A stretch of DNA of 64,000 nt from Phycisphaerales bacterium (GCA_020853975.1 JADYXW010000015.1:124001-188000), one strand, 5' to 3'; shown: positions 35,005 to 53,795, counted from the stretch's first letter. The notes: generated from the letters alone by a model not told the origin. A program made the numbers and translations.

Positions 35005-35035
35005 GTTGTGTTCGCGTGCGCAGCGTGGTGAGAAC

Positions 35036-35044
35036 TGCTAGACT
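35036..35044 (+). promoter_or_regulatory. Extended -10 promoter candidate at the head of the T6SS-like locus
   Basis: TG-C-TAGACT, an extended -10 (TGnTAnnnT) about 47 bp before the GTG at 35091. No matching -35. TAGACT also occurs before the exported protein gene at 18899. If functional, it places the 35016 start upstream of the mRNA and supports 35091. Confidence 0.35.
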
Positions 35045-35090
35045 GACCCTTCGCGGATCGCGGGTCGCCGAAGCTGGGGAGCGTGGGGAC

Positions 35091-37031
35091 GTGAGCACAG
35101 GACTGAGCAACTCGTTCGTCTTTTCCCCCCTTCCGAGGGAGATGCCCGCCGGGCTGGGTGCGGCGCCGCTCTTCCCCCACGAGACAGGCACGCTCCGGCT
35201 GAGCGTGGTCGTGAGGTTGGAGCCCCGTGGCGGGGAAGGCCGGTTCATCGTGCTCCGGGAGACGCTGGACGCGCGGGTATATCTCGGCTGCACCGCGGAC
35301 CGTGCGGGGCGCGTGCGGGAGTGGCTCGAGCTCTGGGTGCAGGACGTCTCCGGGCTCGCCCAGGCAACGGTTTCCTACCGCGAGGCCCTGAGCAACACGC
35401 TGCTGGATGCCAGGTGGGCGAAGCGGTGCGAGCTGCTGGCGAAGTCGGGCGGGCTGGTCGCCACCGGGTTTGAGAACGCGCACCCGGCGCCCGTGCTCAT
35501 CGACGTCAAGGCCCTTGCCCCCGTCGCGGCACGGGACGCTCAGGGGGCGACCTGGGCGCTGTGCACCGACGATGGGCTGCTCTCCCGGAAGCAGACGCCG
35601 GCCTACGGCTCGACGCTTGGTCGGCACCTCTTCCAGCCTGCGCTCGGGGACGAGACGCCCCTGCTTCCCGCGGACCTTGCCGATGCCAGGGCGCTGGGCG
35701 CCCCCGCGGGGTGCGAAGCTCTGAACGCCGGCGGCGGACTGATGATGGCCCAGCCCTTTGCGCCATTCGGGTATGAGCAGGTTGTCGATGCCCTCTCGGG
35801 CGTCGATGGCGAGGCCGGCCCGGCGGACAACGTCCTGCAGGTTGCGGCGGCAGCCGCGAGAGGGGTTTCGGGCAGCCTCAACCCCGCCGGGGGGTGGCTC
35901 ATGCTCTCCGCGGCGGGGGCCCCCGCCAGGCTCGTCGAGTCCCTCCACGTCAGGCTGGCGCTCTTTGCGCAGGCGGCCGCGGCCGTGCGGGCCCATGTGA
36001 GCGAGACCGCGGCTCCGATGCTGAATGTGACCGGACGGAGCTTCCGCGTGTCGTTCTCCGACGGCGCCGGCGCTGTCCCCCTGTGGTGGACCACGCGCGT
36101 CTCGCTCGTGGAACCGGGCGAGGGTGTCGAACTCGCCATTCCCTCCACCGCGGCACGGTACTTTGTCGCCGGCAAGGGCTCCGGCCTGTCCATCTATTCG
36201 CCCGCGGCGGTCTCGGTCGCCGGCACGGGCCGGGGTTGGCTGAGGCTGAGAAACGTCGTCGCAGGCGACGCCGGCGGCGTGATCCTGGAGGGAACGCTCT
36301 CGACGCAGGACCGTGTGATTCCGGGCAGGAACGACCTTGTGTGGCTGCGATGCTCCGTGGGCTCCTCTCGCGTCGATCTCTACGCGACCGTGGACGCCAA
36401 GGGCTCGATGGTGCCGGGCGAGGTACGCCTGAGGACGATCCCGCAGCAGTTCTCGGAGGACATGCAGCATCGGCTCAGGCAGGCGCTGGGCGTGCCGATC
36501 CCGGACGTCACGTTCGAGATCGTGCCGTTGCTCTCCTCGCCCTGCGACCTGTATGCGCTGGGCGTGCTGGGCGTGAGGACACTGCTCTCGGGTCCCGGGA
36601 CCCCGCTCCCGGTGGCGCTGGACGAGCTCTTGAGTCTGGCCGGCGCCGCCGCGAAGGCCGCGGACAGCGGCGAGACGCTCGAAGCCCGGATTGGAAGGCT
36701 GTTTGCGACCGAGAAGCGCTGGGCCGAGTCCCTCGGGCCTCAGGTGCTCCTGCCGGGCGTGGCAGCAGCGGACGCGGCAGACGTGATCCCGCCCGCGCTC
36801 TGGCACGGCGTTCTGGCGGCGGTTGTTCGGTGTTTCACCGGCCTGGGGCCGGACAGTCGGTGCAAGGACTTCGGCGACGCCCCGCAGGGCGGGCTGCACA
36901 GGGTCTTTGACGGAGTGATCGACGACCTGTACGCTCTCCTGACCGCCTGCCGCACGCTCATCGTGAGCGACTACGGATTGAATGCGGAGGTGCGGGGCGT
37001 GGTCCAGGCGTGTCTTCAGTCGAACAGGTAG
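35091..37031 (+). CDS. Unknown protein at the head of the T6SS-like locus
   Basis: 646 residues from the GTG at 35091 (GGGGAG upstream); a GTG at 35016 is possible but sits before the likely promoter. I do not recognise a family. There is no signal peptide and no clear membrane helix, so it is probably cytosolic. Visible features: beta-rich segments (LRLSVVVRLEPR, VREWLELWVQDVS), and in the C-terminal third a stretch SSPCDLYALGVLGVRTLLSG that resembles kinase subdomain IX (the Asp-x-Tyr-x-Leu-Gly helix), but no catalytic loop or lysine motif was found. Same strand as and 84 nt before the TssJ-like lipoprotein, so most likely part of that locus. Confidence 0.6.
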   Translation: MSTGLSNSFVFSPLPREMPAGLGAAPLFPHETGTLRLSVVVRLEPRGGEGRFIVLRETLDARVYLGCTADRAGRVREWLELWVQDVSGLAQATVSYREALSNTLLDARWAKRCELLAKSGGLVATGFENAHPAPVLIDVKALAPVAARDAQGATWALCTDDGLLSRKQTPAYGSTLGRHLFQPALGDETPLLPADLADARALGAPAGCEALNAGGGLMMAQPFAPFGYEQVVDALSGVDGEAGPADNVLQVAAAAARGVSGSLNPAGGWLMLSAAGAPARLVESLHVRLALFAQAAAAVRAHVSETAAPMLNVTGRSFRVSFSDGAGAVPLWWTTRVSLVEPGEGVELAIPSTAARYFVAGKGSGLSIYSPAAVSVAGTGRGWLRLRNVVAGDAGGVILEGTLSTQDRVIPGRNDLVWLRCSVGSSRVDLYATVDAKGSMVPGEVRLRTIPQQFSEDMQHRLRQALGVPIPDVTFEIVPLLSSPCDLYALGVLGVRTLLSGPGTPLPVALDELLSLAGAAAKAADSGETLEARIGRLFATEKRWAESLGPQVLLPGVAAADAADVIPPALWHGVLAAVVRCFTGLGPDSRCKDFGDAPQGGLHRVFDGVIDDLYALLTACRTLIVSDYGLNAEVRGVVQACLQSNR

Positions 37032-37115
37032 AGATCGTGGTCTGACAGGGTCCGAAGCAAGACAATCCACGCTGCCGGAGGTCGGGGCGTGCGACTCACC
37101 AGGAAGGGGTTCTCA

Positions 37116-37646
37116 ATGAACATGCTGACTCGCGTAGCGATGGTGGTGGTGGCGGTGGCGACGGTGGTCCTGGCGACCGGGTGCCAGCAGAGCGTGCGCG
37201 GTTGGAAGGGTGACCTGGTCATCACGCCCGACGCCAGCCTCCGGGACTCCTCGGGCAAGATGCCCCCCGTCGAGGTGGACGTCGTGGCCATCAATGAAAC
37301 CGATGAGATGGTTCGCGGCTACCCGGTGGACAACTGGTTCTCCGGCGAGGACAAGCAGCGTGCCTCCTGCGCCCCGTACACCAAGTCCCTCGCCTTTGGC
37401 CCCGGCGCCGAGAGCGCGATCGTGATCTCCAAGAGCGATCCCATCTGGAAGAAGTGGGAGGAGCGCGGCTACAAGGACCTGGTGGTCTTTGCCACCGCCC
37501 GCAGCATGCGGGCCTCCCCCGGCGGGTTCGACGGGCGCCGGAAGGTCATCCCTCTCACGAACGACAAGTGGGACGTGGGGCAGATCAACTTCGAGGTCAA
37601 GTCCAGCGGCGTGGAGTGCCCCACGCCCATGAAGATCCAGAAGTAA
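37116..37646 (+). CDS. Lipoprotein in the TssJ position of the T6SS-like locus
   Basis: 176 residues from the ATG at 37116, chosen for AGGAAGGGG just upstream; a GTG at 37089 is a weaker start. Signal peptide MNMLTRVAMVVVAVATVVLATGC with a lipobox-like ATGC (Cys23). The mature 150 residues alternate hydrophobic beta stretches (VEVDVVAINETDE, YKDLVVFATARSM, VGQINFEV), fitting a small beta-sandwich such as TssJ, the outer-membrane lipoprotein that holds TssM. The match to TssJ is by size, topology and neighbourhood rather than strong motif identity. Confidence 0.55.
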   Translation: MNMLTRVAMVVVAVATVVLATGCQQSVRGWKGDLVITPDASLRDSSGKMPPVEVDVVAINETDEMVRGYPVDNWFSGEDKQRASCAPYTKSLAFGPGAESAIVISKSDPIWKKWEERGYKDLVVFATARSMRASPGGFDGRRKVIPLTNDKWDVGQINFEVKSSGVECPTPMKIQK

Positions 37647-37680: not shown

Positions 37681-40600
37681 ATGCCGAACTTCGGACGATT
37701 TGAGGCCTACGACGAGTTTGGCTCGAGCGGGCCCTACGCGGTATGGCGCGCCCGCCCTGCGGGCACCGAAGGCCCGGGCCCCGCGGTCGTCAAAGCCTGC
37801 CTCACGCAGGACATGCTCGCTGATGAGCAGGTCGTGGAGAGGCGCGCGGCGAGGTTCCTGGCTTCGGCGGAGTTCCAGCGCGGGCTCGCGGGCGACGGCT
37901 GGGCCCCGATCAGCGACGTGGGGCGGCTGCCCACCCACGCCTACTACATCACCGAGTGGTACCCGAGCACGCTGGAGCGGGTGATCGAGGCCCGCAGCAT
38001 CGCGGGCCTCGCGGAAGAGGACCCGGTCTCCGGCGCCAAGGCGGTTGTACACCTGATCTCAGGGATCACCCAGGGGCTGGAGCGGGTGCAGGCCGCGTCG
38101 GGCCGCGGGCACGGCAACCTCAAGGCTACCAACGTGCTCCTGAGGCTCGGTGACGATGGCGACCTGGCCGGGGCGGGAGTGGCGCTCGCCGACCCTGCGC
38201 CGCCTGAGACCATCGGGTCAGATTCGGTGCGCGACGACGCGAGGGCGATCGCCTCGCTCATCCACAGGCTTGTGACCGGGCGCCCCGCGCCCGGGGCCGG
38301 CGCCGTGCAGGTGGGGCCGGAGTGGTCCAGGCTCGGCTCGCCCGGCCCGGGCGAGGAGCTGAGGCGAGTCTGCGAGGCGCTGCTGAACGTGCAGGCCGGT
38401 GCCGCGCCGCCAACGCCCGCGCAGGTGAGGGAACAGCTCGCGGCGTGCCTCCGCGCCAAGATGGTGCGGAAGAAGAGCCCGGTGCCGCTCGTCGCGTCCG
38501 TGGTGGGCGTGCTGCTGGTGGGCGGGGGCGTGGCGGGGTACTTCCTGACGCGGCCCGATGAGCCCAAGCGCAGGCCCGGCGCCGATCCGCGAGAGCCGAC
38601 GCCCCAGGCGTGGCAGGCCACCACGACCAAATTGCTGCAGGACGCGGAGAGCACAATGCTCACTGTCCGGCCCTGCATGACGGACGACCAACTCGCGCGA
38701 TCGGACGAGCTCGGGCGGCGCCTGGCCAAGGCCATGGAGGGGCTGCCACTTCTGGCCTCGGCGGCATGGCCCCAGGGAGAGGGTGAGGCCGTCCTCGCGG
38801 GCCGTGCGGCGATGACGAAGCAGATCGAGGAGGCGGAGGCGGAGATCGGCGCGGTCAAGGCCGCCGCCCTGGGTCTCAAGACCGAGGTCGGCGACTGCAG
38901 CGAGGAAGTCGACCCGAGGCGTCCGGATCGCCAGCAGTGGCTGACGGAGCGTGAGGCGAGGCTCAAGGCGCAGATCGCGGCAATGACGACGGAACTTGCG
39001 GCGGAACTCTCGGCAGCGCCGGACGAGGCGCTGCGGGGGGCGGTCACGGGCCTGACAGACCAGGCGACGGCGATGGTGCAGAAACTGGACGCGGTGCGTG
39101 CGCAAGAGTGGCCCACGGTCTCGGCGGGTGGCGACTCGGAGGCGATCAAGGCCGCGCGCGAGTCCCGCGCGAGGATCCGCTCCGATGTGCAGAGTCTGGC
39201 GAACGAAGTGGGGCAGGTGACGCAGGCGGCGGAGAAGACGCTCCGGGACAGCCGCGATCGGGTGAAGGGGTATCTGGACGCCCGTTCGCGCGACCGGGAC
39301 AAAGTGTCATCGTCGGACAGGCTCCGCGAGGCGTACGCGGTGGCGATCTCGGCGGTGAAGCGCACGGACCCGACGTGGGCGGAAGCCAAGGCGAAGGCCG
39401 ATGCAATTCAGGCATGGATCGGCGCAGTCGACCGCGAGCTGGCGATCGACCTCCAGGTGGCGATGCCCCCGGGATCGCAGGTGCGTCCGGACCCTGCGGG
39501 CCGATTCTTCAGCCAGGCGAGAGAGCGTGCGATCGAGGCGGCGGTGAGGCCGGTCGAGGACCGCGGCGGCATCCCGAACTCCGAGGCGGACCTGGCGCTC
39601 GCAACCAAGGAAAAGGCGGCGCTAGTCGCGCTCGCGGAGGAGATCCGCACGCTCCTGGGCCAGGCCGGGCGCATCGAGCAGCTCCTCGCGCGAGCGAGCG
39701 GTTACGACGAACCAACGGACGGCGCGAGCGTGAAGTCCCTGCTGGAAGCGATCGAGGGCTCGCCCCGGCTCGCGGATCTTGAGGCCTCGGTCGAGGTGGT
39801 GGTCGAGCGCGCCAGGCGACTGCGGACCGCGGCCGGCACTTCGGGCGTCGTGCCCGCGTCGGCGGGGCTGAAGGACACGGGTGGGGACCCCGCCCGCGCG
39901 TCAGAGGCCATCACGTTCTGGCGCGCGCTCCGTTCCGCCGGGTATCCGGCCGATGCAGCCCAGATCGCCGAGGCCCCGGCCCTGGTGAACCAGCAGCTCC
40001 TGCCCGCGCTCCGCGGCATGGGCGACAAGGCGCGGGGTGAGCAGCTCGCGAGCGAGGCCGTCGACGCGATGCGCGGCGCCTGGTTCGCATTCGTGCACGA
40101 GAAGGCGGGCGGCGACGCGGCCTCCGTGGACGCGGCGTTCAAGGCCTCCGAGGCCTATGGCCTCAGCGAGCAGGACCTCAGCGCAAGGCTCGAACCTTTC
40201 GCCAAGTTCAACCGCGAGCGATGGAAGCTGCTTGCGACCCTCGACAGCGTGGCGTCCATACCCGACCGCAACCAGCAGATCTCCCGGCTCCAGCAGCTCG
40301 CGGCGGGGCTGCAGGGAGCGGCGCAGACACTGGGCGTGGGCGGCCGGGCCGACGTGCAGGACCTCTTCACGAACAAGCGCAAACTTGCCCCGTATCTCGC
40401 GGGCAAGTTCTCCAACTTCGAGGAGGTCGGTCCCGCGACGCCGGGCGCCGCTGCCCGCTGGAAGATGGAGGAGCAGGACGAGGACAACGGCCTGTGGGCC
40501 GTGTACAGCCTGGGGGGCCACCGCCTGCGGTTCCAGCGTGTGGGCGAGAGCGAGGAGCCCGCGAGCTTTGTCTGCACGACAGAGGTCAGCGTCGGCCTGT

Positions 40601-41553
40601 TCCAGAGCGTGATGCAGACCGGCAGTGCCTGGCAGGACGTGCGGGGCAAGCTGACGATGCTCCCAAAGAACGATCAGCGCAAGGGGCCACGGGCGTGGGT
40701 CTGGGACGACGCGGGCCTGGCGATGGGCGTGAGCCAGCCGACGAGCGGTGCGGACCTCAACGGCCGGGGCTGGTTCCGCGTGCTCCCGGGGGACATCAAC
40801 GCCGCGAATGGCCCGCAGGTGGCGCTCTATCCGCAGGGGAGAGAGCCCCCGCCGCCTTCCGCCGCGAGCCCGGTGAACTACGTGTCGACAGACGGCGCGC
40901 TGTTCATGGCGGCACTGATGGGCTGTCGCGTGCCGACGGTCGATGAGTGGACCCAAGCCGGCGGGGCCGGTGGGGGCGCGGCGAACCGTCGAGACAGCGT
41001 GTGGCAGGGGCAGCACGCCCACTTGCGTGCGCAGCTCGATGCGGCGCCCGAAAAGGACCGGATGAGCCTGCAGAACAACCTGCCCTGGCCCGGCGCGGAC
41101 ATCTTCACGCCCCCGGAGGCGGCGCCCGCGCCCGCGGCCGCGGACGGCGACCCCGCGGTTGCCCAGTCAGACTCGACGCTGTGGTTCCAGCCCGTGACCG
41201 AGGGAACAACCGCGTTTGAGAATCTCGAGGGCAACGTGGCGGAAATCGTGCTGGCCAACGAAGCCGCGTATGTCCGGGCTTCCGTGCCCCCGAAGGAGGG
41301 CCTGCTCGGAGCGATCAAGTCGGCGGTCAAGTCGGCGGACGTCCGTGTGGTGGGCGCCTCGGCGCTCTCTCCCGCGGGTGTGTCACCATCGACGCCCTAC
41401 GGTGTGAAGAGTGTGAGCGCGTACTGGTCCGATGTCGGGTTCCGCCTCGCGTTCTCAGCAAGCGCGGGCGGCGGTGGGGGTGGACGCCTGGCGGAAAAGC
41501 TGCGACGAATCCTCACCATCGACACGCCGTTCCTCACCCGCACCGGCGGGTGA
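37681..41553 (+). CDS. Pseudokinase - membrane helix - coil - FGE-like fusion (PpkA/TagR-type)
   Basis: 1290 residues. Residues about 1-255 read as a Ser/Thr kinase fold: a degenerate glycine loop (EFGSSGPYAVW), the ATP lysine in AVVKACL (Lys38), the catalytic loop HGNLKATNVLL (144-154), in which HRD is His-Gly-Asn so the catalytic Asp is lost while Asn151 is kept, a remnant DFG (ADP) and the late helix DDARAIASLIHRLVTGRP. One membrane helix follows at about 266-287 (PLVASVVGVLLVGGGVAGYF), then some 650 residues of helical, charged coil. Residues about 955-1275 match the FGE/sulfatase-modifying-factor fold: CRVPTVDEWTQAGG, LEGNVAEIV and YWSDVGFRLAF, without the catalytic cysteines. In Pseudomonas type VI systems PpkA kinase is controlled by the FGE-like TagR; here both are one chain. 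Likely a signalling receptor of the locus. Confidence 0.75.
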   Translation: MPNFGRFEAYDEFGSSGPYAVWRARPAGTEGPGPAVVKACLTQDMLADEQVVERRAARFLASAEFQRGLAGDGWAPISDVGRLPTHAYYITEWYPSTLERVIEARSIAGLAEEDPVSGAKAVVHLISGITQGLERVQAASGRGHGNLKATNVLLRLGDDGDLAGAGVALADPAPPETIGSDSVRDDARAIASLIHRLVTGRPAPGAGAVQVGPEWSRLGSPGPGEELRRVCEALLNVQAGAAPPTPAQVREQLAACLRAKMVRKKSPVPLVASVVGVLLVGGGVAGYFLTRPDEPKRRPGADPREPTPQAWQATTTKLLQDAESTMLTVRPCMTDDQLARSDELGRRLAKAMEGLPLLASAAWPQGEGEAVLAGRAAMTKQIEEAEAEIGAVKAAALGLKTEVGDCSEEVDPRRPDRQQWLTEREARLKAQIAAMTTELAAELSAAPDEALRGAVTGLTDQATAMVQKLDAVRAQEWPTVSAGGDSEAIKAARESRARIRSDVQSLANEVGQVTQAAEKTLRDSRDRVKGYLDARSRDRDKVSSSDRLREAYAVAISAVKRTDPTWAEAKAKADAIQAWIGAVDRELAIDLQVAMPPGSQVRPDPAGRFFSQARERAIEAAVRPVEDRGGIPNSEADLALATKEKAALVALAEEIRTLLGQAGRIEQLLARASGYDEPTDGASVKSLLEAIEGSPRLADLEASVEVVVERARRLRTAAGTSGVVPASAGLKDTGGDPARASEAITFWRALRSAGYPADAAQIAEAPALVNQQLLPALRGMGDKARGEQLASEAVDAMRGAWFAFVHEKAGGDAASVDAAFKASEAYGLSEQDLSARLEPFAKFNRERWKLLATLDSVASIPDRNQQISRLQQLAAGLQGAAQTLGVGGRADVQDLFTNKRKLAPYLAGKFSNFEEVGPATPGAAARWKMEEQDEDNGLWAVYSLGGHRLRFQRVGESEEPASFVCTTEVSVGLFQSVMQTGSAWQDVRGKLTMLPKNDQRKGPRAWVWDDAGLAMGVSQPTSGADLNGRGWFRVLPGDINAANGPQVALYPQGREPPPPSAASPVNYVSTDGALFMAALMGCRVPTVDEWTQAGGAGGGAANRRDSVWQGQHAHLRAQLDAAPEKDRMSLQNNLPWPGADIFTPPEAAPAPAAADGDPAVAQSDSTLWFQPVTEGTTAFENLEGNVAEIVLANEAAYVRASVPPKEGLLGAIKSAVKSADVRVVGASALSPAGVSPSTPYGVKSVSAYWSDVGFRLAFSASAGGGGGGRLAEKLRRILTIDTPFLTRTGG

Positions 41554-42010: not shown

Positions 42011-42067
42011 AATGGCGTCCCGTCGGGGGCGGGGTTGTGGCGTGGCACTTGCGTGGGAGGAGGCGGG

Positions 42068-43036
42068 TTGATCGAGCCAACGAGCGAGACGGGCCGCAAG
42101 GCGATGACGCTTGCCAATCGGCTGCGCGTGCTCTACGCGGAGCTGTCGGACCAGACCGGAGACATGCGGGGCGAGCAACTGCGGGACGAGGTTCAGCGGG
42201 CGCTTTCTTCCCTGCAGCCCAGCGCGCGGGAGCCCTTTCTTCAGGAACTTGTCCGCCAGTTTCCGTTGTGGTCTGCGAGCGATCGCGACCCCGCGCCGGC
42301 GCCGCCGCGTCCGGCACCGGTTTCCGCCTCGGTGCCCGCGGTCTCGGAGCCCCGGGACCCCAAGTCCGTCGCGGAGAAACTGATCGAAGTGACCAAGGGT
42401 CTGGGCGAGGCCGAGAAGCAGCAGATCGCGGCGAGGCTCAGCGTTGCCGGGCTGCTGCCCAGGCCGACGGCCTCTGCGGCTGCCCCGGCGGCGGCCGGCC
42501 CCAGCGGCGCCGTGAGCGCCTCGGGGGCGGCGGACCTTCGGAAGCACCTGGGCATGCCCGCCGATGCGCCCATCGACGCCGGCAAGGCCGTGGAGCTGGC
42601 GGCGGTGCTCGCGGAGTTCGTCCTCAAGCTCGAGCCCTACGCGTGCATGTTCTGGAAGGACATCGCACCGGACGCCAAGAACCAGGTCTACCAGACGCTC
42701 AACCGGGACCTGGGCAAGTTCATGTCCGGGGATGAGAAGGTCACCAAGGAGGCGGTCTCCAAGGGCGTGTTCAACCTCCGCAGCCTGGTGTCACTCCTGC
42801 TCAAGGGCGTCTCCGACGCGGGCAAGCAGTTCTCGCGCGATCACATCTCCCGATTCTCGGTCGACGAGATCACAAAGGCGGCGGGCCCGGGGACCCTGAT
42901 GACCAGCAAGGACGTGCTCTGCTGGAAGCAGTATGTCAGGCAGATGGAAGGAGTGGACGCGGCGTCGTTGGAGAAGAGGCTCAAGTCGGTCATCGCCAAG
43001 GACGTCGATGCCGGTCTCAGTCAGGTCATCAAGTGA
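42068..43036 (+). CDS. T6SS-like-locus protein of unknown family
   Basis: 322 residues from a TTG at 42068, chosen because GGAGGAGG precedes it; an ATG at 42104 would have a poorly placed site. N-terminal about 90 residues: helical (LRVLYAELSDQTGDMRGEQL), then a Pro/Ala-rich linker, then a C-terminal all-helical domain of about 150 residues (KAVELAAVLAEFVLKLEPYA, DLGKFMSGDEKVTKEAVSKG). Position directly before tssK and the shape of the helical domain are reminiscent of the C-terminal domain of Fha/TagH proteins, but there is no FHA domain and I see no firm motif. No signal or membrane helix; probably a cytosolic partner of TssK/TssL. Confidence 0.55.
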   Translation: MIEPTSETGRKAMTLANRLRVLYAELSDQTGDMRGEQLRDEVQRALSSLQPSAREPFLQELVRQFPLWSASDRDPAPAPPRPAPVSASVPAVSEPRDPKSVAEKLIEVTKGLGEAEKQQIAARLSVAGLLPRPTASAAAPAAAGPSGAVSASGAADLRKHLGMPADAPIDAGKAVELAAVLAEFVLKLEPYACMFWKDIAPDAKNQVYQTLNRDLGKFMSGDEKVTKEAVSKGVFNLRSLVSLLLKGVSDAGKQFSRDHISRFSVDEITKAAGPGTLMTSKDVLCWKQYVRQMEGVDAASLEKRLKSVIAKDVDAGLSQVIK

Positions 43037-43118: not shown

Positions 43119-44540
43119 ATGTCAAGCATCGGACATGTTCACTGGCACGAAGGGCTCTTCCTGCAGCCCCACCACCTCCAGACCATGCACCGCGACCTCC
43201 TCGAGGGCTCGTGGCGAGAGCGGAGGCTGTCGTGGGCGTTTCCCTACGGCGTGACCGAGTTGCGCATCTCTACCGACGCGCTGGAGAACATGCTCATCCG
43301 GGTTGACCGCCTCCGGGCGGTCATGCCCAGCGGGCTGGAGATCGACGTCCCCGGCAACGCCGACCTCCCCGCCCTGGACATCAAGAGGGTCTTCCAGGCT
43401 TCGTCCGGGTCGTTCCTCGTGGGCCTGGCTGTGCCGGTGTGGCAGTCCACCCGGGCGAACACGGTCGACTCCGGTGGTGGCGGGCTCGGCGCACCGGGAG
43501 GGGCGGCCCGCCGCGCCCTGCAGGACGAGGCGAAGGTGAAGAGGCTCTACCGCGTCGCGGAGATCCAGAGGCCCGACGAGAACACGGGCGAGAACGCCCA
43601 GGCCATGATGGTCCGGCGGCTCAACGCCCGGCTGGTCGTGGAGGGCGAGGACCTCAGTGATCTCGAGGTGCTGCCTCTCATGCGCATCATGCACTCGGCG
43701 GAGGAGCAGACGCTTCCGCGGCCTGATCCCTCGTTCATCCCTCCGTGCATGGTGCTGGGCGGCAACCCGACGCTGCGGAACATCGTCCGCGACCTTGCGA
43801 ACGCGGTGGACGCCAGCCGCAAGGAACTGGTCAACCAGATGACCCGCGGCGGGTGGGTTCCCGAGAACATCAAGGGCCCGCAACTGCTGATGGTGATGAG
43901 GCTCCGCACGCTCAACCGGTTCGCGGCGACGCTGGCCCCGCTGGTGAGCGGCGGGGTGGGTGTCGCCGGGACGATGAGCCCCTTCGACGCGTACCTTGCG
44001 CTGCGGGAGCTCCAGGCGGAACTCGCGGCCCTCACGCCCGATCGCGACCCCTTCGAGGGGCCCAAGTACGACCACGATAACCCGGGCGCCGTGTTCATGG
44101 AGATGGACAAGCGCATCCGGCCCCTGCTCCGGGGTGACGTGCAGAAGCGGTTCCTCTCCCTGCCTTTCACCAAGGACGGCGCCGCCATCTCGTGCGCGCT
44201 CACCGAGGAGCACCTCACGCAGCCCAACGCGTACTTCCTCGGCATCAAGACCAAGGCGGATGCGGCGGTGCTCGCGAAGCTCGTCGAGGACCAGGACAAG
44301 TTCAAGCTCATGCCCAAGAGCATGGTGAAACTGAACATCTATGGCATGAAGCTGGTCGAGGACCGGCACCCGCCCCTGGAGCTGCCCAGCGCGAACGACC
44401 TGCACTACTTCCGAGTGGAGATGGCGCAGAGCCAGAAGATGTGGGAGCGGGCGGCGGGCGAAAAGGCGCTCGCGATCCGCTGGCCCGAGCTGGAGCCCTT
44501 GGATTACCAGGACATCAGCCTCTACATGACCGTGCCCTGA
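43119..44540 (+). CDS. tssK: Type VI secretion baseplate-membrane connector TssK
   Basis: 473 residues, normal for TssK. The diagnostic N-terminus is VHWHEGLFLQPHHLQTMHRD (7-26), followed by GVTELRISTDALENMLIRVD and, later, LTEEHLTQPNAYFLGIKTKA. AGAAGGA lies upstream of the ATG. In known systems trimeric TssK binds the baseplate TssF/TssG and the cytosolic domains of TssL/TssM, docking the needle onto the membrane complex. Its genes TssF/TssG are absent from the window. Confidence 0.93.
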   Translation: MSSIGHVHWHEGLFLQPHHLQTMHRDLLEGSWRERRLSWAFPYGVTELRISTDALENMLIRVDRLRAVMPSGLEIDVPGNADLPALDIKRVFQASSGSFLVGLAVPVWQSTRANTVDSGGGGLGAPGGAARRALQDEAKVKRLYRVAEIQRPDENTGENAQAMMVRRLNARLVVEGEDLSDLEVLPLMRIMHSAEEQTLPRPDPSFIPPCMVLGGNPTLRNIVRDLANAVDASRKELVNQMTRGGWVPENIKGPQLLMVMRLRTLNRFAATLAPLVSGGVGVAGTMSPFDAYLALRELQAELAALTPDRDPFEGPKYDHDNPGAVFMEMDKRIRPLLRGDVQKRFLSLPFTKDGAAISCALTEEHLTQPNAYFLGIKTKADAAVLAKLVEDQDKFKLMPKSMVKLNIYGMKLVEDRHPPLELPSANDLHYFRVEMAQSQKMWERAAGEKALAIRWPELEPLDYQDISLYMTVP

Positions 44541-44593: not shown

Positions 44594-45277
44594 ATGAACC
44601 TGGTCGAGATCTGTGAGCCGCTGTTTCAATACGTCTGCCGTCTGAACCGCGTCGGCCGCAAGGGCGGCCGGGTGGACTACGGCACCGTGCGCGCGGAGTT
44701 GAAGGCGATCTTCGTGGACATGAAGTCGAAGGCGGACGGGGCCGGCCCACTCTCAGGCGCGTACGCGGAGGTGGAGCAGGTGCTCGTCTTCTTCGCGGAT
44801 TCGATGATCCTCAATAGCAAGCTCCCCCCCGGGTGGAAGCCCCTGAGCCACGAGCGGGGCGAGCTGGGGTTTGAGGAGAAGTTCTGGGACCTGCTCGAGG
44901 ACACGCTCAAGGACCCCTCCGACAGCGCCACGCAGCGGCTGGGGGTGTTCTATGTGTGCATCGGGCTCGGGTTTACGGGGTTGTACACGGGCCAGCCGGA
45001 CTACATCCGGCGCAAGATGCTCGAGATCTCCGCGAGGCTGCGCGGCATGATCGACGCGGACCAGGCCGGGCGGATGTGCCCCGACGCGTACGACAACGTG
45101 GACACGCGCAACCTCACGCAGCCCCCCAACCGGAGCATCGTGGGGATGCTGATCGTGCTGGTGGTGATGGTGGGCGTGCTGCTGGTGTCGTACGTGAAGC
45201 TGTTCCAGGACTCGAGCAGTCGGCTGACAACGTCGCTGGAGCACGTGCAGAAGGCGGGAGAGCAGACGGGCGGGTGA
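44594..45277 (+). CDS. tssL: Type VI secretion membrane protein TssL (DotU/IcmH family)
   Basis: 227 residues. The cytosolic helical DotU domain fills residues 1-175 (EPLFQYVCRLNRV, the LGFTGLY turn at 125-131). One membrane helix follows (about 181-203, SIVGMLIVLVVMVGVLLVSY) and a short outer tail of about 24 residues, with no OmpA or peptidoglycan-binding domain. GGAGGAA at the ribosome site. TssL sits in the inner membrane, binding TssM and TssK. Confidence 0.92.
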   Translation: MNLVEICEPLFQYVCRLNRVGRKGGRVDYGTVRAELKAIFVDMKSKADGAGPLSGAYAEVEQVLVFFADSMILNSKLPPGWKPLSHERGELGFEEKFWDLLEDTLKDPSDSATQRLGVFYVCIGLGFTGLYTGQPDYIRRKMLEISARLRGMIDADQAGRMCPDAYDNVDTRNLTQPPNRSIVGMLIVLVVMVGVLLVSYVKLFQDSSSRLTTSLEHVQKAGEQTGG

Positions 45278-45331: not shown

Positions 45332-48300
45332 ATGCTGGGCAGCTTTGCCAACCTCCCAAGGCCGGTGCAGGCCGTGGTGATGCTCGCGTCGGGCGCGAGC
45401 CTGACGTCGTTCGTGCTCGCCGCGGTTCCGGGGCCGTACCAGAGCTTTTTCATGTACGTCACGATCGGCATCGTGGCGGTGGTGGTGCTGCTGGCGCTCT
45501 TCAAGCTTGTGCTGATGCTGCGCGACAAGGCCAAGAGCGGCCCGTTCGCGAGCATGCTGAGCAAGGGCGCCAGGGGGGCCGCGGACCCCGCGCTGAAGGC
45601 CCGCATGGATGATCTGCGCCGGAAGTTCGAGGAGGGCGTCACCACGTTCAAGCAGGCGGGCAAGGACCTGTACAGCCTGCCCTGGTACCTGCTCGTGGGC
45701 CCGCCGGGCTCGGGCAAGACGGAGGCGCTGCGGCACTCCAACGTGGGCTTCCCGCCGGGGCTGCAGGACCCGCTGCAGGGCTCGGGCGGCACGCTGAACA
45801 TGCACTGGTGGTTCACGAACCACGCGGTGGTCATCGACACCGCGGGGCGCATGTTCATGGAGGGCGCCGACGAGGGAGGCGGGTCCGAGTGGCGAGAGTT
45901 CCTGAAGCTGCTGAAGAGCGCGAGGCCGAACTGCCCGGTCAACGGGCTGCTGCTGGTGATCTCCAGCGAGAGCCTGCTGAAGGACGGCGCGGAGAAGATC
46001 GAGCAGACCGCCGGGGCGATCGCCCGGCAGCTCGATGTCGTGCAGCGCACGCTCGACGTGAGGTTCCCCGTCACGGTGGTGGTGACGAAGTGCGACAAGA
46101 TCATCGGGTTCCGCGAGTTCTTCGAGCACATCGGCGACCCGAACCTGCAGCACCAGATCCTTGGATGGAGCAACCCCTCGCCCCTGGACGAGGCCTTCAA
46201 GCCCGATCAGGTGGACAAGCACCTGGAGTCCGTGCGTCAGAAGCTGATGAAGCGCCGCATGGGCCTGATCCAGAACCCCGTGCACACGACCGACGCGAAC
46301 GCCCGGCGCACGGACCAGATCGACGAGATGTTCGAGCTGCCCGACAACCTGGTGCGGATCGCGCCGAGGCTGCGCCGGTACCTGGAGATGATCTTTGTCG
46401 CGGGCGAGTGGAGCCCCAAGCCCCTGTTCCTGCGTGGCATCTACTTCACGAGTTCCATGCGCGAGGGCCAGGCGCTGGACGTGTCGCTCGCGCAGGCGCT
46501 CGGCGTCGACGTGGAGTCCATCCCCGGCAGCCGCGACTGGGACCGCGAGAAGTCGTACTTCCTCCGCGACCTGTTCATGTCGAAGGTGTTCAAGGAGAAG
46601 GGGCTGGTCACCCGCGCGACCAACGTCAGCAAGGCGCTGGCGAAGCAGCGCGCCCTGCTCGTGGGCGGCGCGATCGCGACGGCGGTGGTGCTGGGCGGGC
46701 TGACCGTGCTCGGCTACTTCCAGTTCAACGCCTCGCTGGGGCCGCCCAGCAAGACCTGGTCCGCGGTGCGGGGCGCGATGGTGGGAGACCCCGGGCGCGA
46801 CATCACCCCTCTTGACCCCAAGGAGACGAGCCTGATCGCGCGGTCCACCGACGCGGGCGGCACGGGCTGGGTCTACCAGGGCCGCAAGGACTTCACCAAC
46901 CTCGATGTGCTGGGCTCCGACATCGTGAACCCGCTGGAGCTGATCGTCGAGACCGGGTCGTACAAGGCCATCGACCCACCCCTGATCGCGCGCCCCGCGG
47001 CCCCGATGCTGGGATTCCGCAACTCCTTCCTGGACTCGCAGGAGGCGGCGCACCGCAGGGTGATCGAGCACACCACGCTCAGCCCGCTGCTCGAAGCGGC
47101 CCGCAGCCGCCTGGAGCAGGAGAAGGACTGGGGCCCCGACGCGGTCGCGGCGCTGGCGCAGCTCATCCGGGTGCAGACGTACTCCTACAAGTCCAAGCCG
47201 GCGTTCGACGAGGGGCCGAGCCTCGCCGATCTGAAGGACGCGGCGAAGGACGTCCGCCTGCCCACGGACCGGGGCGAGATCCCCGCGATCGACGTGGACG
47301 CGCTCTTCCGGTACGTGCTCGGGCCCGCCGCGGACGAGGCCAAGGGCTATGCGGGCGACCGGAGCAAGGTTCGTGAGGCGGTCAAGCGGGCCTATCCGAA
47401 CGGTCTGGGCGCGATCGAAGTCTCAGCGCTGCTGGGCGGGAAGGACGAGACGAACCGGCGCGTGAATGAGCGTGCCGCGGCCAACCTCGCGGAGCGCATG
47501 CGCACGGGCGGTTCGCCTACGGGCGACATGGGCGCGCTGCTCATGCTCCAATCCGGGCTTGCGGAGTTTGCCGCTGCCGAGGCGCAGCTCCGCGCCCACC
47601 CGATGCTGCGCGCCGGCGCGACCGGGGCCGCGGGCCTGCCCCGCACCGTGGAGCAGTACGACACGTTCGCCAAGGAAGCGGGTGCGCAGTTCAAGCGCCT
47701 TGCCGACGCAAAGGCGAAGGTCGATCAGGCTGTGACGAGGCTGGGCTCGAAGGCGGACAACCCGCTGGACGCGCTGACAGCCGCGGGCGAGCAGTGGGAG
47801 CGCGAGGCGGGCTCGTTCTTTGACCAGCTCATCCAGCAGCTCCCCAAGGGCCTGGACACAGGCCTGGAGGGCAAGGCGGCGGAGCTCGCGGAGAAGGCGT
47901 TCAACGAGCGGACGCCCGAGGAGCTGAGGTCGCTGCTCACCAAACTGGTGGAGCACCGCAGGACTGTGGTGGCGGCGGTCAAGGCCTCGCTGGAAGCCGT
48001 GCGGGCCGACGTGCAGCGTTCGGCGCCCCTCGCGGTGCCGGGGCGCACCTCGGCGCAGGTCGACGCGCGGGCCTACGCCGCCCGGTACGCGCTCTACGAG
48101 CTGGGCTCGGGAGAGCTGACGGCGGCGGCGCAGCCCGTGGGGGCGGTGACCTCCGTGACAGCGAAGATCGACCAGATCGACGCCGGGCCCCGGCGCGTGG
48201 GCGAGCAGGCGCAGCCGTGGCTCTCCTGGACACCCGCCCAGGCCGGCCTCAAGGGGCTCGCGCCCGACCAGGTGACCTCGCTCACGACCGATCGCGACGA

Positions 48301-49894
48301 GGCCGAGCGGCTGGCCCGTCGCGTTTCGGAGATCGCGGGTGCGCGCCGCGTGTACGAAGCCATCCGCCAGGCGATCGCCGACTGGCCCAAGGACGTTCCC
48401 GCCCTCCGCGAGCGGGTGAAGGCTCTGGCAGATGCGAAGATCGAGGGCGGCGCGCGGCGGGCGGAAAGGCCTCGGCTGCTGCTCACGGAGATGAAGGACG
48501 GCGGCGAGTTCGACCGCGTGTACTTCGTCGAGGCCGGGCGCGAGGTGATGGGCGACTGGGCCCGCGTGAGGACGCTCATCGAGCCCGCGTCGGGGGCCGA
48601 GCGCCAGGTGATGGACGCGGAAGCGCTCAGGGGCGGTGGCTACCTCGCGGCGGGTCGCGTGACCGAGGACTACGTCGTGGAGTATGCCCGCTACTGGCGT
48701 CGCCAGGCGACGGACGCCACGCAGGTGAGCGTGAACACCTGGGCGGATTTCGCCGGGCAGATCGACGACATGATCCCGGACAACATCGTCGATCTGAAGC
48801 AGCTTCAGGACGTGACGACGGCGGCGCTGGACTCCATCCCGAGCGTGCTCATGGCGCCCGCGGCTCTCTCGGATCACAAGACCGACGTGGCCAAGGCGTT
48901 CGGCGGGCTCGCGACCGAAGCCTTCAGCCGCGAGGGCGCGATCCGCGATTCGCTGCGCAACTGGCGGCGGCTCGCGGGCGTGCAGGGCGGTCCCGAGGGC
49001 GCCGTCGGGCTGCTGCGGGCGTCGTACAACGCGGGCGATGCCCAGGCGGAGTACTTCGCGCAGTACGGCAAGGGCGTCGCGTACTGGGATGGCGTGGTCC
49101 TTCGGGGCGTGGAGTTGCTCACCGAGGCGACCCAGGGCGACATCGCCCGCGCTCAGAACCTGCTCATGTCCTCGAACAAGGCGCCGCTGTGCTTCGGGCC
49201 GGCTTCCATGGGCGACCTGAGCCCGGATGAGCTCCGTGCCGTTGCCGCCGCGGCCTCGAAGGTGGCCAGCGGGAGCGGGGGCACCGGCACCACCGTCAAG
49301 CCCTCCGCGGGCATGGACCCTCGTGTGAACGACCTGCTCTCAAGGCTGTTCGGGGCGAACTTCATCAAGGCGACGGCGGAGCGGCAGACGTGGTTCACCC
49401 GCCTGCAGCGGGTTCTGGATTCGGTCGCGGGCAAGGACCCCGTCCGGCTGAGCCTCAACCTGCTCTCCGATGCGCCGCCCCAGGGCGCCGCGGGCAAGAC
49501 GCTGGCCGCGGACAGCGGCTACAAGTTCGCGGCCCTCTACGTGAACGACAAGAAGGTGGGCGAGGCGTTCAACATCTTCAGCGCCTCGACGATCCCCGCG
49601 GACAAGGCCAAGGACCTGGTTGTGACTCTCCCGGCGCAGTCCAGCTTCATCGGGCTCTACCGCGAGGACCCGGGCCGGACGGATCGGGCGCCCGACGAGC
49701 GCATCGCGCTCCCCGAGCACTGGAGTCTGCTGGGGGCGATGCTCAAGCAGGAGCAGAGCGATCGCGTTGGGCCCGGCGTGTGGCGAGTCATGGCCTCCAA
49801 CAACACCATGTACCTGTGGCTGACCATCAAGATCGAGCCGGACGTGCCGGCACGGGCCGACTGGCCCAGCGTCAGCACGTGGCCCGGGCAGTGA
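45332..49894 (+). CDS. tssM: Type VI secretion membrane protein TssM (IcmF family), enlarged
   Basis: 1520 residues, longer than the 1100-1300 usual in proteobacterial TssM. Two N-terminal membrane helices (about 13-55), a cytosolic GTPase-like domain with Walker A GPPGSGKT (123-130), Walker B VVIDTAGR and NKxD-like VTKCDK. A third helix (about 446-470, LLVGGAIATAVVLGGLTVLG) leads to a roughly 1000-residue outer part, mostly helical, ending in a beta-rich domain (SLNLLSDAPPQGAAGKTL, MYLWLTIKIEPD) like the TssJ-binding end of TssM. AGAAGGAG precedes the ATG. It spans the envelope and links TssL/TssK to the outer-membrane lipoprotein. Confidence 0.92.
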   Translation: MLGSFANLPRPVQAVVMLASGASLTSFVLAAVPGPYQSFFMYVTIGIVAVVVLLALFKLVLMLRDKAKSGPFASMLSKGARGAADPALKARMDDLRRKFEEGVTTFKQAGKDLYSLPWYLLVGPPGSGKTEALRHSNVGFPPGLQDPLQGSGGTLNMHWWFTNHAVVIDTAGRMFMEGADEGGGSEWREFLKLLKSARPNCPVNGLLLVISSESLLKDGAEKIEQTAGAIARQLDVVQRTLDVRFPVTVVVTKCDKIIGFREFFEHIGDPNLQHQILGWSNPSPLDEAFKPDQVDKHLESVRQKLMKRRMGLIQNPVHTTDANARRTDQIDEMFELPDNLVRIAPRLRRYLEMIFVAGEWSPKPLFLRGIYFTSSMREGQALDVSLAQALGVDVESIPGSRDWDREKSYFLRDLFMSKVFKEKGLVTRATNVSKALAKQRALLVGGAIATAVVLGGLTVLGYFQFNASLGPPSKTWSAVRGAMVGDPGRDITPLDPKETSLIARSTDAGGTGWVYQGRKDFTNLDVLGSDIVNPLELIVETGSYKAIDPPLIARPAAPMLGFRNSFLDSQEAAHRRVIEHTTLSPLLEAARSRLEQEKDWGPDAVAALAQLIRVQTYSYKSKPAFDEGPSLADLKDAAKDVRLPTDRGEIPAIDVDALFRYVLGPAADEAKGYAGDRSKVREAVKRAYPNGLGAIEVSALLGGKDETNRRVNERAAANLAERMRTGGSPTGDMGALLMLQSGLAEFAAAEAQLRAHPMLRAGATGAAGLPRTVEQYDTFAKEAGAQFKRLADAKAKVDQAVTRLGSKADNPLDALTAAGEQWEREAGSFFDQLIQQLPKGLDTGLEGKAAELAEKAFNERTPEELRSLLTKLVEHRRTVVAAVKASLEAVRADVQRSAPLAVPGRTSAQVDARAYAARYALYELGSGELTAAAQPVGAVTSVTAKIDQIDAGPRRVGEQAQPWLSWTPAQAGLKGLAPDQVTSLTTDRDEAERLARRVSEIAGARRVYEAIRQAIADWPKDVPALRERVKALADAKIEGGARRAERPRLLLTEMKDGGEFDRVYFVEAGREVMGDWARVRTLIEPASGAERQVMDAEALRGGGYLAAGRVTEDYVVEYARYWRRQATDATQVSVNTWADFAGQIDDMIPDNIVDLKQLQDVTTAALDSIPSVLMAPAALSDHKTDVAKAFGGLATEAFSREGAIRDSLRNWRRLAGVQGGPEGAVGLLRASYNAGDAQAEYFAQYGKGVAYWDGVVLRGVELLTEATQGDIARAQNLLMSSNKAPLCFGPASMGDLSPDELRAVAAAASKVASGSGGTGTTVKPSAGMDPRVNDLLSRLFGANFIKATAERQTWFTRLQRVLDSVAGKDPVRLSLNLLSDAPPQGAAGKTLAADSGYKFAALYVNDKKVGEAFNIFSASTIPADKAKDLVVTLPAQSSFIGLYREDPGRTDRAPDERIALPEHWSLLGAMLKQEQSDRVGPGVWRVMASNNTMYLWLTIKIEPDVPARADWPSVSTWPGQ

Positions 49895-49918: not shown

Positions 49919-52900
49919 GTGGGCAAGGAAGGGCCTGTTCGGAACGCGCGCGTGCACCTGGCCGCCTTCGGGAAGCACCCGGGCTGGGATGATCACATCG
50001 AGGAGATCGGGCTGGATCACGAGGATCTGGTCCGGATCAAGCGGGAGCTCTACGCCGAGGGGCTGGCGGGCAACATCGACTCCGGAGCGTGGGAGAAGCT
50101 CCCGGACGAGCAACGCCTGCCCGCGTTCAAGCACCTGTTCTACTGGCGGCGTTCCGCGGGCCTGGTGATCGGGCGGATGTGGTCCAGCCGCGACGGCAAG
50201 GGGCGCACCAAGTACCCGATGGTTGTCTGCGCCATGGTCGAGGGCGTTCCCGACGCGTGGGCCATCCAGCACGTGCTGCCCCGCCTGGAGCAGGTGGAGG
50301 CCAAGTGCGTGCAGACCGGGTCCGCGGAGCTTGTCAGGCTTGCGATCGGCGAAGCGCGGCGCGGGCTCGAAGACCAAGCGGCCCTGCTCGCCACCTCCGC
50401 CGCCAGCCAGTCGGGCGATGACGCAGGGCTCATCCGGGCGCTCGTGACGAGCCCGGCCCTGAACATCCCCGAAGAGACCGGGGGCGGGCTGACCCGGGTG
50501 CTCTACGAGATCGACCGCGAGATGGGCGAGTTCAAGGGCGGCGCCGGCGCCAAGCGCACCGCCTCAAAGATCGTGGGTGAGGCCGGCGCCCAGCACATCC
50601 GCGTTCCCAGGTGCCTGCAGCCCGGGGGCGACGCCGCACGGGCCTGGATGCTCCTGCTCGCCCAGGACATCGCGGACGCGACATCTATCTTGGTCATCGA
50701 GCCCATGGACGCGGCGTTCGTGGACATCATCGTCGGCAACCCGCGCCCACAGCAGTTCTTCTGCGTCAGGGCCGGGGACAAGGGCCTCGCGCTGACTTCC
50801 GAGGTGCCCTACACGATCGATCCAGCCTTCAAGGCCTCGGCGTCCGAGCGTGTGAAGGCCTGGAGCGCCGGCAACATCAGGCTTGCGGGCCGGCGCGGGT
50901 CCGCGGTGGGAAGCGCGCCCGCCGAGGTGGCCGGTGATCGCAAGGGTTTCCCCCGAGGAGTGCTGCTTGCGGCGGGCGGGGTCATCGCGGCGATTGTCCT
51001 CGGTGTCGGGCTCTGGGCCGCGCTCTCGGGCGGACCGGGCGAGCCGGATCCGGCGCCGGCTCCGGAGGGACCCGGTCAGCAGGGCAACAGCACGCCGGTT
51101 CCGATTCAGCCCGCGAACATCGAGAAGCCCACTCCCCCCAAGCCCGCGCCCAGCTACGGGGCGGACGATCCGCGATCGGGCTGGGACATCGACGATCAGG
51201 TCACCCGCGCCCGCGCGCTCCTGGCGGCGCTGGAGGTAGAACTCGCCGCGGAGGGTCTGAAGCCCGATCCGGCGGTCAAGACCCGCATCGACCGCGCCGT
51301 CGACCGCGCCGACAACTTCGTGCGGAGCCGGGCGCTGTCCGCGGCGTCGCGCGATGCCATCGTGAGCGACATGACATCCGTTGATGGCGAGGTTCGTGCG
51401 GTGATGACGCAGCTCAAGAGCGATATCGACCGCAGCCACGAGCGGGTGCGGGCCTTCCTGGACGAAGAGGCGTCCCAGGCCCAGGTGAAGAGCGAGGCCC
51501 TGAAGGCGGCTTGGAGCACCGGGCTGCGGGCCATCGACCACACGAAGGGTTGGGAACATGCGCGCGCGCGACATGCTGCCGTCGTTGCGGCGCTGAAGGA
51601 GGCCGAAGGGCTGCTTGCTTCTTCGGGCGAGTTCAAGGCCCCGACGCTGGCGGAGGTGCAGACCCCCGCGCTTACGGCGGTCATCGACGCTCGGCGCGAG
51701 AAGGCCATGCGGGAAGTCGCGGCCGCCGCGGGCACGGGCGACTCGGCCCGTTCGGGTGACGCTGCGCGTGAGCTCGCGACCTGGACGGAGGAGGCCCGCG
51801 CGTTGTTTGCAAAGGCCGGGAAGATTAGCCAGCTCCTGGGCGGGGGTTACGCCTGGGCCGAAGCCGCCCCCGGCGGTGATTCCATCAAGGGACTTCACGA
51901 GCAACTCTCCGGGATGGCGGGGTGGGACGACTTCTCCGCGGCGCTCGCCGGGCTGAACGCCCGCTGCTCCGCGCTCAAGGACATCGCGGCGGGCGAAGAC
52001 CCCAACGCGCTGGTCGGGACGATCCGCAAGTCTCGGGCGGACCTCGCGAAACTCGGCCTCTCCGAGGCGAGCACCGCGTGGGGGAGGCTCGCCGAAGTTC
52101 CGGGTTGGCCCGCGAAGGCGGACGACGCGCGCGAAGCCGCCAAGGTGCTCAAGGACGACATGCTACCCCTCATCGGGCGCGAGCCCGGCGCGGAGCGGCG
52201 CCGGGAGCTCGAGGCAGGCGCGAAGCAGGCCGGGGCGCGGGTGTGGGGCCGGTTCGCGGGGACCGCCGCCTTGGACGCCCAGGGGGTCGACGCGGCGTTG
52301 GAGACCCGTGGGGCGCTGGGCGCGGACGACCTGGTCGAGCAGGGCGTGCCGGACTGGGCCCGGTTCAATCTGGCACGTGGACGGCTCGCAAGGGCCGTGG
52401 ACGCGGCGGACGCCCTGCCCGGGCGTGCGCGGGTGGACGCCATCCGGGCCGCCATGGAAGGCTTCGTGGCTCTTTCGTCCGCACTTCCGGTCGCGGCCAC
52501 GGGCGAGGCCAAGCAGTTGGTCGGTGCGATGAAGGAACTGCTCGACTCGCCCGGGGAGATTGACCTGGCAAAGCTCGGTCCTGGCGGGGCGGGCTTCGAG
52601 CTCGTGTCGTCGGACGCGGAGTCGGTGGTGTACCGACTAGGGAGCACTCCGGTCGAGTTCCGCCGTCTGGAGCCGACGGGCGAGGGAGTGTCTTTCGTCT
52701 CCACCACCGAAATGTCGGTGGGCGCGTTCATTGACCTCGTCGGGGGCCGGGCAGAGGAGTTCCGGACCATCATGCCAAAGTCGGACGCGGGGGGGATCGA
52801 CCCTCGCGTGGGTCCGCGCGTGTGGGGATGGCAGGGATCCTCTCTCGCGGTGAGTTCGCCCGCGGGCCCGGGCGACCTGGGCCAGGGCTGGGTCCGGATC

Positions 52901-53605
52901 AAGACGCAGATGGCGGGGCGCGAGTACTACCCGGCCGGGATGAAAGTCGATCCCCCGAGCAGGGATCACCCGATGCAGTACCTCTCGCCGCACGCCGCCG
53001 TGCTGGCGGCTCGCCTCGCCGGGTGCCGCCTGCCGACGGTGGACGAGTGGACGGCGGCAGGAGGAGCGGTGGGAGCAACGAACCTGCGAGACGCGTCGTG
53101 GAAGAAGGTGCACGATCACCTTCGCCAGTTTGCGTCTTCGGGGCCGGAGTTCCCGGGGGCGGGGCTGTTCTGGCCCACCGGGGTCACCCGCAAGAGCCCT
53201 CTCGACGACGATCAGCCGGCTGTAAGCAACGATGACAACCTGGTTTGGTTCGCACCCGTCACGGCTGGGGAAGGCAAGTTCAAGCACCTGGCCGGCAACG
53301 TGGCGGAGTATGTGACCCATGAGGCAGTGGATTGGGAGAGCGTGGTAGCGACCCGAGAGGCCGTGGACGGCGCTGTTGGAAAGGGCGAAAAGGTGCGGAT
53401 CGTGGGAGGTTCGGCCCTGTCCCCCGCGGATGTGAAGCTCGATCAGGCCTACCCGCTGACCCCCCAATCGCGAGAGGGGTACTCCGATGTCGGGTTCCGT
53501 CTCGCGTTTGGCGCCCCGAGGGCGGCCGCGGCGGCAAGCACGGCCGAGCGGGTCCGGAAGGCGTTGACCGCATCGGGCTACCTTACTGGGGAGCAGCGCA
53601 AGTAG
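49919..53605 (+). CDS. TagF (ImpM) - membrane helix - coil - FGE-like fusion
   Basis: 1228 residues from a GTG with AGAAAGGA upstream. The first 300 residues are TagF-like: FGKHPGWDDHIEEIGLDHED, the LFYWRRSAGLVIGRMW core and GRTKYPMVVCAMVEG. One membrane helix (about 348-368, VLLAAGGVIAAIVLGVGLWA) is followed by a 500-residue, Ala/Glu-rich helical coil and then an FGE/SUMF fold from about 920 to 1210: GCRLPTVDEWTAAGGA, LAGNVAEYV and YSDVGFRLAFG, again without catalytic cysteines. The tail closely parallels that of the pseudokinase fusion, implying a duplicated module. TagF is a soluble repressor of type VI firing in Pseudomonas; the fused, membrane-anchored form with its own sensor-like domain is unusual. 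Last gene of the locus. Confidence 0.8.
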   Translation: MGKEGPVRNARVHLAAFGKHPGWDDHIEEIGLDHEDLVRIKRELYAEGLAGNIDSGAWEKLPDEQRLPAFKHLFYWRRSAGLVIGRMWSSRDGKGRTKYPMVVCAMVEGVPDAWAIQHVLPRLEQVEAKCVQTGSAELVRLAIGEARRGLEDQAALLATSAASQSGDDAGLIRALVTSPALNIPEETGGGLTRVLYEIDREMGEFKGGAGAKRTASKIVGEAGAQHIRVPRCLQPGGDAARAWMLLLAQDIADATSILVIEPMDAAFVDIIVGNPRPQQFFCVRAGDKGLALTSEVPYTIDPAFKASASERVKAWSAGNIRLAGRRGSAVGSAPAEVAGDRKGFPRGVLLAAGGVIAAIVLGVGLWAALSGGPGEPDPAPAPEGPGQQGNSTPVPIQPANIEKPTPPKPAPSYGADDPRSGWDIDDQVTRARALLAALEVELAAEGLKPDPAVKTRIDRAVDRADNFVRSRALSAASRDAIVSDMTSVDGEVRAVMTQLKSDIDRSHERVRAFLDEEASQAQVKSEALKAAWSTGLRAIDHTKGWEHARARHAAVVAALKEAEGLLASSGEFKAPTLAEVQTPALTAVIDARREKAMREVAAAAGTGDSARSGDAARELATWTEEARALFAKAGKISQLLGGGYAWAEAAPGGDSIKGLHEQLSGMAGWDDFSAALAGLNARCSALKDIAAGEDPNALVGTIRKSRADLAKLGLSEASTAWGRLAEVPGWPAKADDAREAAKVLKDDMLPLIGREPGAERRRELEAGAKQAGARVWGRFAGTAALDAQGVDAALETRGALGADDLVEQGVPDWARFNLARGRLARAVDAADALPGRARVDAIRAAMEGFVALSSALPVAATGEAKQLVGAMKELLDSPGEIDLAKLGPGGAGFELVSSDAESVVYRLGSTPVEFRRLEPTGEGVSFVSTTEMSVGAFIDLVGGRAEEFRTIMPKSDAGGIDPRVGPRVWGWQGSSLAVSSPAGPGDLGQGWVRIKTQMAGREYYPAGMKVDPPSRDHPMQYLSPHAAVLAARLAGCRLPTVDEWTAAGGAVGATNLRDASWKKVHDHLRQFASSGPEFPGAGLFWPTGVTRKSPLDDDQPAVSNDDNLVWFAPVTAGEGKFKHLAGNVAEYVTHEAVDWESVVATREAVDGAVGKGEKVRIVGGSALSPADVKLDQAYPLTPQSREGYSDVGFRLAFGAPRAAAAASTAERVRKALTASGYLTGEQRK

Positions 53606-53773: not shown

Positions 53774-53795
53774 GTCAGAGAAAGAAGGTACTGGG

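Follow-up and report, generated by a model that had tools for sequence, protein, structure and literature searches.

TagR, an FGE-like periplasmic protein, is a regulator that acts upstream of PpkA in the control of type VI secretion systems (T6SS). Known post-translational control through PpkA depends on kinase activity: PpkA needs its catalytic Asp in both P. aeruginosa and A. tumefaciens (PMC3953482), and the kinase, triggered by signals from the periplasm (TagQRST, RtkS), phosphorylates Fha or TssL (PMC3953482, PMC10482370). TagF represses T6SS by a separate route, via Fha in the same two species and possibly via TssM in S. marcescens, and a TagF-PppA fusion is known from A. tumefaciens (PMC10482370). 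In the type VIIb system, the transmembrane pseudokinase EssB/YukC plays a non-catalytic part (PMC12599244), and Chlamydia Pkn1, which has an N-terminal kinase and a C-terminal FGE domain, has been reported to phosphorylate IncG (PMC3581485). Neither planctomycetes nor FGE domains are mentioned in a review of bacterial pseudokinase families from 2025 (PMC12599244), and our literature searches found nothing linking T6SS with FGE or TagR with formylglycine.

In this study, we analysed a 64,000-nucleotide stretch of a Phycisphaerales bacterium genome (GCA_020853975.1 JADYXW010000015.1:124001-188000; hereafter the window), in which one gene, P0001, encodes a pseudokinase domain, a transmembrane (TM) helix, a stalk and an FGE-fold domain. 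P0001 resembles PpkA, as described, in joining a kinase-fold cytoplasmic domain to a TM segment and in lying next to the membrane-complex genes of a T6SS cluster, but differs in that the catalytic Asp is absent, no Fha or PppA is found nearby, and a stalk and an FGE-like domain are fused to it. With TagR, likewise compared by description, it shares an FGE-like periplasmic domain acting with a kinase-like T6SS protein; unlike TagR, this domain is fused in cis, and TagF carries a second copy. EssB/YukC is the nearest functional parallel, with a dead kinase domain and a TM helix in a secretion cluster, although this compares ways of working only, and P0001 differs in its type VI cluster, its phylum, its retained K/N/D residues and its FGE-fold ectodomain. 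The kinase-FGE fusion as such is a known architecture from Pkn1, which differs from P0001 with its TM helix and ~600-residue stalk, and for which PMC3581485 gives no T6SS link.

The reading that we favour, and hold to be reasonably probable, is that P0001 fills the PpkA slot as a T6SS switch or scaffold that acts by binding instead of catalysis, and that it works together with a TagF receptor and replaces the PpkA-Fha-PppA pathway. It builds on the computed folds and the catalytic residues that they lack, on synteny with T6SS genes, purifying selection, the architecture of a sister receptor and, in the genomes checked, the lack of a nearby FHA gene. P0001 would thus occupy without catalysis a slot in which known control requires it.

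Architecture of P0001

The gene and its parts are located as follows.

37681..41553, + strand: P0001, pseudokinase-TM-stalk-FGE gene, ATG start, 1290 aa
37681..38460, + strand: kinase-fold domain, residues 1-260 (family profile, AF2 model, VIA comparison)
38482..38547, + strand: predicted single TM helix, residues 268-289
38578..40410, + strand: long, mostly helical stalk, predicted periplasmic, ~residues 300-910
40462..41466, + strand: FGE-fold domain, ~residues 928-1262, without the FGE cysteine pair (profile, predicted fold)

The open reading frame at 37681-41553 (+) is real, with a dN/dS of 0.09. Coding homologues with conserved synteny were found in 16 of the 61 close relatives and in 86 of the 400 genomes from the order, and most of these homologues come from MAGs. 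A first-pass annotation had described a receptor-like protein with a single helix, a long coil and a fused FGE-like domain, and this layout holds: the helix is the predicted TM helix at residues 268-289, and the coil is the mostly helical stalk at about residues 300-910. We infer that the kinase domain is cytoplasmic and that the stalk and FGE domain are periplasmic. Separate kinase and FGE genes in one relative (L065/G140) were ruled out, as a single in-frame stop in this MAG explains the split. The stop itself, a TAA between TM helix and stalk in the homologue at L065:2559-8180, reflects either a sequencing error or a broken gene.

Type VI secretion cluster and selection

P0001 sits in a T6SS cluster, thus an earlier hint at PpkA and TagR, which had been made from the sequence of the window, fits. 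The neighbouring genes are listed below.

35016..37031, + strand: u35016, conserved cluster protein with no Pfam or PDB relative
37089..37646, + strand: lipoprotein, probable TssJ by position
42035..43036, + strand: u42035, conserved cluster protein of unknown fold, no significant solved relative
43119..44540, + strand: tssK
44594..45277, + strand: tssL (DotU)
45332..49894, + strand: tssM (IcmF)
49919..53605, + strand: P0002, sister receptor with TagF-like domain, TM helix, stalk and FGE domain

The order u35016, TssJ-like lipoprotein, P0001, u42035, tssK, tssL, tssM, P0002 and a two-partner secretion pair, with tssA, tssB and tssC further on outside the window, is kept in close relatives and many Phycisphaerae, and versions of it occur in Verrucomicrobiota.

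Measured against G002, the nearest relative of the window, dN/dS was 0.09 for the whole of P0001; its pseudokinase domain and stalk each gave 0.10 and its FGE domain 0.07. In the same comparison the TagF domain gave 0.10, tssK 0.02 and tssM 0.05. The pseudokinase domain is under purifying selection, and a pseudogene reading of P0001 is ruled out by these values.

It might be argued that P0001 is mainly structural, anchoring the T6SS membrane complex as EssB/YukC does in type VII and carrying no signal. EssB, a cytoplasmic pseudokinase with a TM segment, is indeed a non-catalytic scaffold in a secretion machine (PMC12599244), the position of P0001, after the TssJ-like gene and before tssK, is conserved, and one verrucomicrobial relative carries a TonB C-terminal domain rather than FGE. 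However, no pseudokinase gene was found within the fetched stretch of the related T6SS loci L067, L068 and L096, thus P0001 is not obligatory in such loci and a universal T6SS component is ruled out, and its dN/dS exceeds those of tssK and tssM, as expected of an accessory part. We therefore regard a purely anchoring role as unlikely.

Kinase fold and catalytic residues

Single-sequence Pfam found no kinase in P0001; the kinase was found by the family profile, which matched solved Ser/Thr kinases (hmmsearch, E 9.1e-11) with HGNLKASNVLL aligned to HRDVKPANIL. The AF2 model of residues 1-299 (pLDDT 88.1, pTM 0.83) matched Mnk1 (VIA Z 22.2, rmsd 2.6 A, 223 residues) and PknB (VIA Z 21.8, ~225 residues). 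Profile and fold together rule out a chance likeness, and the N-terminal part, as modelled, has a bilobal protein kinase fold with alignable motifs.

37792..37794, + strand: K38, beta3 lysine, kept (AVVKA)
38110..38118, + strand: H144-G145-N146 where HRD is expected; codon 146 is AAC (Asn)
38131..38133, + strand: N151, magnesium Asn, kept
38191..38193, + strand: D171, DFG-type Asp, kept; motif DPA (ADPA)

The catalytic loop reads H144-G145-N146-L-K-A-T-N151. P0001 thus has the beta3 Lys, Mg Asn and DFG Asp of active Hanks-type kinases (K38, N151, D171), and has N146 where these carry the HRD catalytic Asp. In place of a proper glycine-rich loop it has SSGPYAVW, and this loop is degenerate throughout the family. 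K38, N151 and H144-Gly-N146 stand in the translation at the positions given to them by the first-pass annotation, and its proposal of a pseudokinase is supported by the replacement of the catalytic Asp with N146.

We aligned 88 homologues, built a tree and counted changes per site. At the HRD Asp, 39 have N, 15 A, 14 R, 5 E, 5 M, 4 D, 2 G, 2 Q, 1 V and 1 S. The full K38/D146/N151/D171 set, with HGDLKPxN intact, occurs only in G001 and G004, two congeners of the window genome that form one clade within a genus of HGN and HGA proteins on the tree. The Asp is absent from 84 of the 88 and these two sit within a group of HGN/HGA relatives, so members of the family have, as a rule, lost it; inspection of HRD in homologues thus bears out the pseudokinase proposal for the most part, and the intact motif of G001 and G004 speaks partly against it. 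The tree requires at least 28 changes at site 146, compared with 3 each at H144 and G145, thus the loop has been kept and the catalytic base left free to vary; D171 changed 9 times and D186 once, and both D186 and W215 are almost invariant. An ancestral Asp implies 17 losses when regain is disallowed and 3 changes when it is allowed, on a tree weakly resolved at depth, and because of this resolution the Asp in G001 and G004 is a likely reversal rather than an established one. The pair offers a natural comparison inside one genus.

K38, N151 and D171 are retained together in P0001 and in 56 of the 88 homologues, and the nucleotide-binding switch suggested earlier may hold for such proteins. This suggestion does not extend to every member, since a few lineages, G029, G169, G226 and G298 among them, have lost all three residues, and nucleotide binding therefore cannot be the function of the whole family.

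The retained residues might also permit residual activity, either weak phosphorylation despite HGN or some other ATP-dependent reaction, and G001 and G004, judging from their intact motif, could be active. Against P0001 still being an enzyme stand the degenerate glycine-rich loop, found even in G001 and G004, the ten kinds of residue at site 146, the joint loss of K38, N151 and D171 in several lineages and the lack of a nearby FHA gene, and we consider such activity quite improbable. That P0001 is a decaying, functionless copy of a former PpkA, as the loss of catalytic residues in many lineages might suggest, is extremely improbable and largely refuted by purifying selection, given the dN/dS of 0.10 in the pseudokinase domain, the near invariance of D186 and W215, the conserved synteny and the long open frames in nearly all matches, with no internal stops among the matches listed.

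FGE-fold domain

By single-sequence Pfam the FGE domain scored under the cut-off (E 8e-4), and the FGE-domain profile matched human FGE at E 2.4e-7. The ectodomain model (pLDDT 87) aligned with T. curvata FGE over 196 residues (VIA Z 15.5), and its structural matches include binding users of the same fold, namely a T. denticola variable protein and PorK. In the profile alignment, S1230 of P0001 (motif GASALS) falls at the place of C336 of human FGE, and none of 34 family copies (motif GGSALSP) has Cys at the C336/C341 places; a control using the catalytic Cys of the genome's other FGE-family proteins yielded no usable motif. Profile and model thus confirm the fold that the first-pass annotation had named, and the absence of the catalytic cysteines is an addition to it. 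The FGE domain of P0001 is probably catalytically dead, and with catalytic residues missing from both kinase and FGE domains, both are probably pseudo-enzymes. In the verrucomicrobial relative L088:6082-8826, a TonB C-terminal domain (PF03544, E 3.5e-17) replaces FGE, and this agrees more readily with docking or sensing than with an enzymatic role.

Fha, phosphatase and kinase partners

FHA domains occur in all genomes checked. The window genome has none on its T6SS contigs (C15/C27), and in seven (near-)complete genomes (G068, G093, G099, G185, G188, G203, G303) none was found closer than 140 kb to the pseudokinase gene. In G099 and G203 an FHA gene adjoins a second, different TssC, thus Fha may go with another T6SS there. 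PP2C_2, the phosphatase family searched, was present in 2 of 13 genomes, in neither case near the pseudokinase gene, and none of the 13 PF00069 kinases of the window genome is on C15 or C27. Elsewhere in the genome there could still be a gene for Fha or a phosphatase, or these partners could come from other families.

Sister receptor and proposed mechanism

P0002, a sister receptor in the same cluster that the first reading of the window did not mention, is a putative TagF protein, judging from an N-terminal match (TIGR03373, E 0.022, under the cut-off), its place beside tssM and the conservation of the family. Like known TagF fusions it contains a TagF-like domain; unlike them, it joins this domain to TM-stalk-FGE, a fusion not found in the literature searched. 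From residue 486, the ectodomains of P0001 and P0002 are 34% identical. TagF stands alone in other lineages, thus the fusion arose within this group, and from the trees it probably did so more than once. Both in a stalk+FGE tree and in an FGE-only tree, TagF ectodomains interleave with pseudokinase ectodomains by lineage, and a single TagF clade was rejected (p-AU 0.0003 and 0.005), although long branches call for caution. The simplest reading of these trees is repeated copying or conversion of ectodomains between pseudokinase and TagF genes, which suggests a shared ligand or complex. Since the TagF repressor domain sits on a matching stalk-FGE ectodomain, P0001 and P0002 probably work as a pair, as positive and negative arms or in a complex, judging from architecture and from a tree shape with long branches, and the sister receptor is a concrete partner candidate.

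We propose that P0001 would be an inner-membrane T6SS accessory protein with its dead kinase domain turned toward the cytoplasm, and that the dead FGE-fold domain would reach the periplasm by way of a single TM helix and the long helical stalk, where it might sense or dock a periplasmic or envelope partner. The pseudokinase may then relay this by conformation or scaffolding to TssL/M/K (membrane complex or baseplate) and/or TagF, so that a binding switch would take the place of the PpkA-Fha-PppA phosphorylation pathway. The switch probably works by binding, because the kinase and FGE halves are both without catalytic residues; the direction of its effect on secretion is something that we infer. 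Loss of catalysis across most of the order together with purifying selection makes a non-catalytic T6SS switch a testable proposal. A bolder version, which we put forward only tentatively, is a phosphorylation-free T6SS switch in which interchangeable dead-FGE ectodomains, repeatedly copied or converted between both genes, would respond to one shared envelope cue with opposite outputs via dead kinase and TagF.

Additional observations on the cluster

Across Phycisphaerae and Verrucomicrobiota, u35016 shows a mean column identity of 49%. A kinase C-lobe, suggested by eye from DLYALGVLAVRxLL, was rejected for this protein (profile comparison probability 0.1, no Pfam/PDB support). In G185, a single contig, the pseudokinase gene (G185:C1:144479-145321) is present with no TssC match, possibly as a relic or in T6SS-independent use.

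The two-partner secretion pair within the T6SS cluster occupies 53763-55880 and 55978 to beyond 64000 of the window (L114:1978-13251). The first gene encodes a ShlB/FhaC-like outer-membrane protein, a transporter that comes after TagF in many related loci, and the second, a giant ORF, encodes 3757 aa that include a TPS secretion domain (E 1.4e-26). A second TssB/TssC copy lies on G000:C27 (L115) with Hcp, TssE, TssF, TssG and a ClpV-like protein, all names except TssC being assigned by eye. Together with the end of C15 (L114), this leaves room for either two T6SS clusters in the window genome or a single split one. The closest copy of the cluster is L057 (QWIH01000005.1), in which TssK is 99% identical; the record is titled Leptolyngbya sp. 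PLA1, a cyanobacterial name that looks wrong for this MAG.
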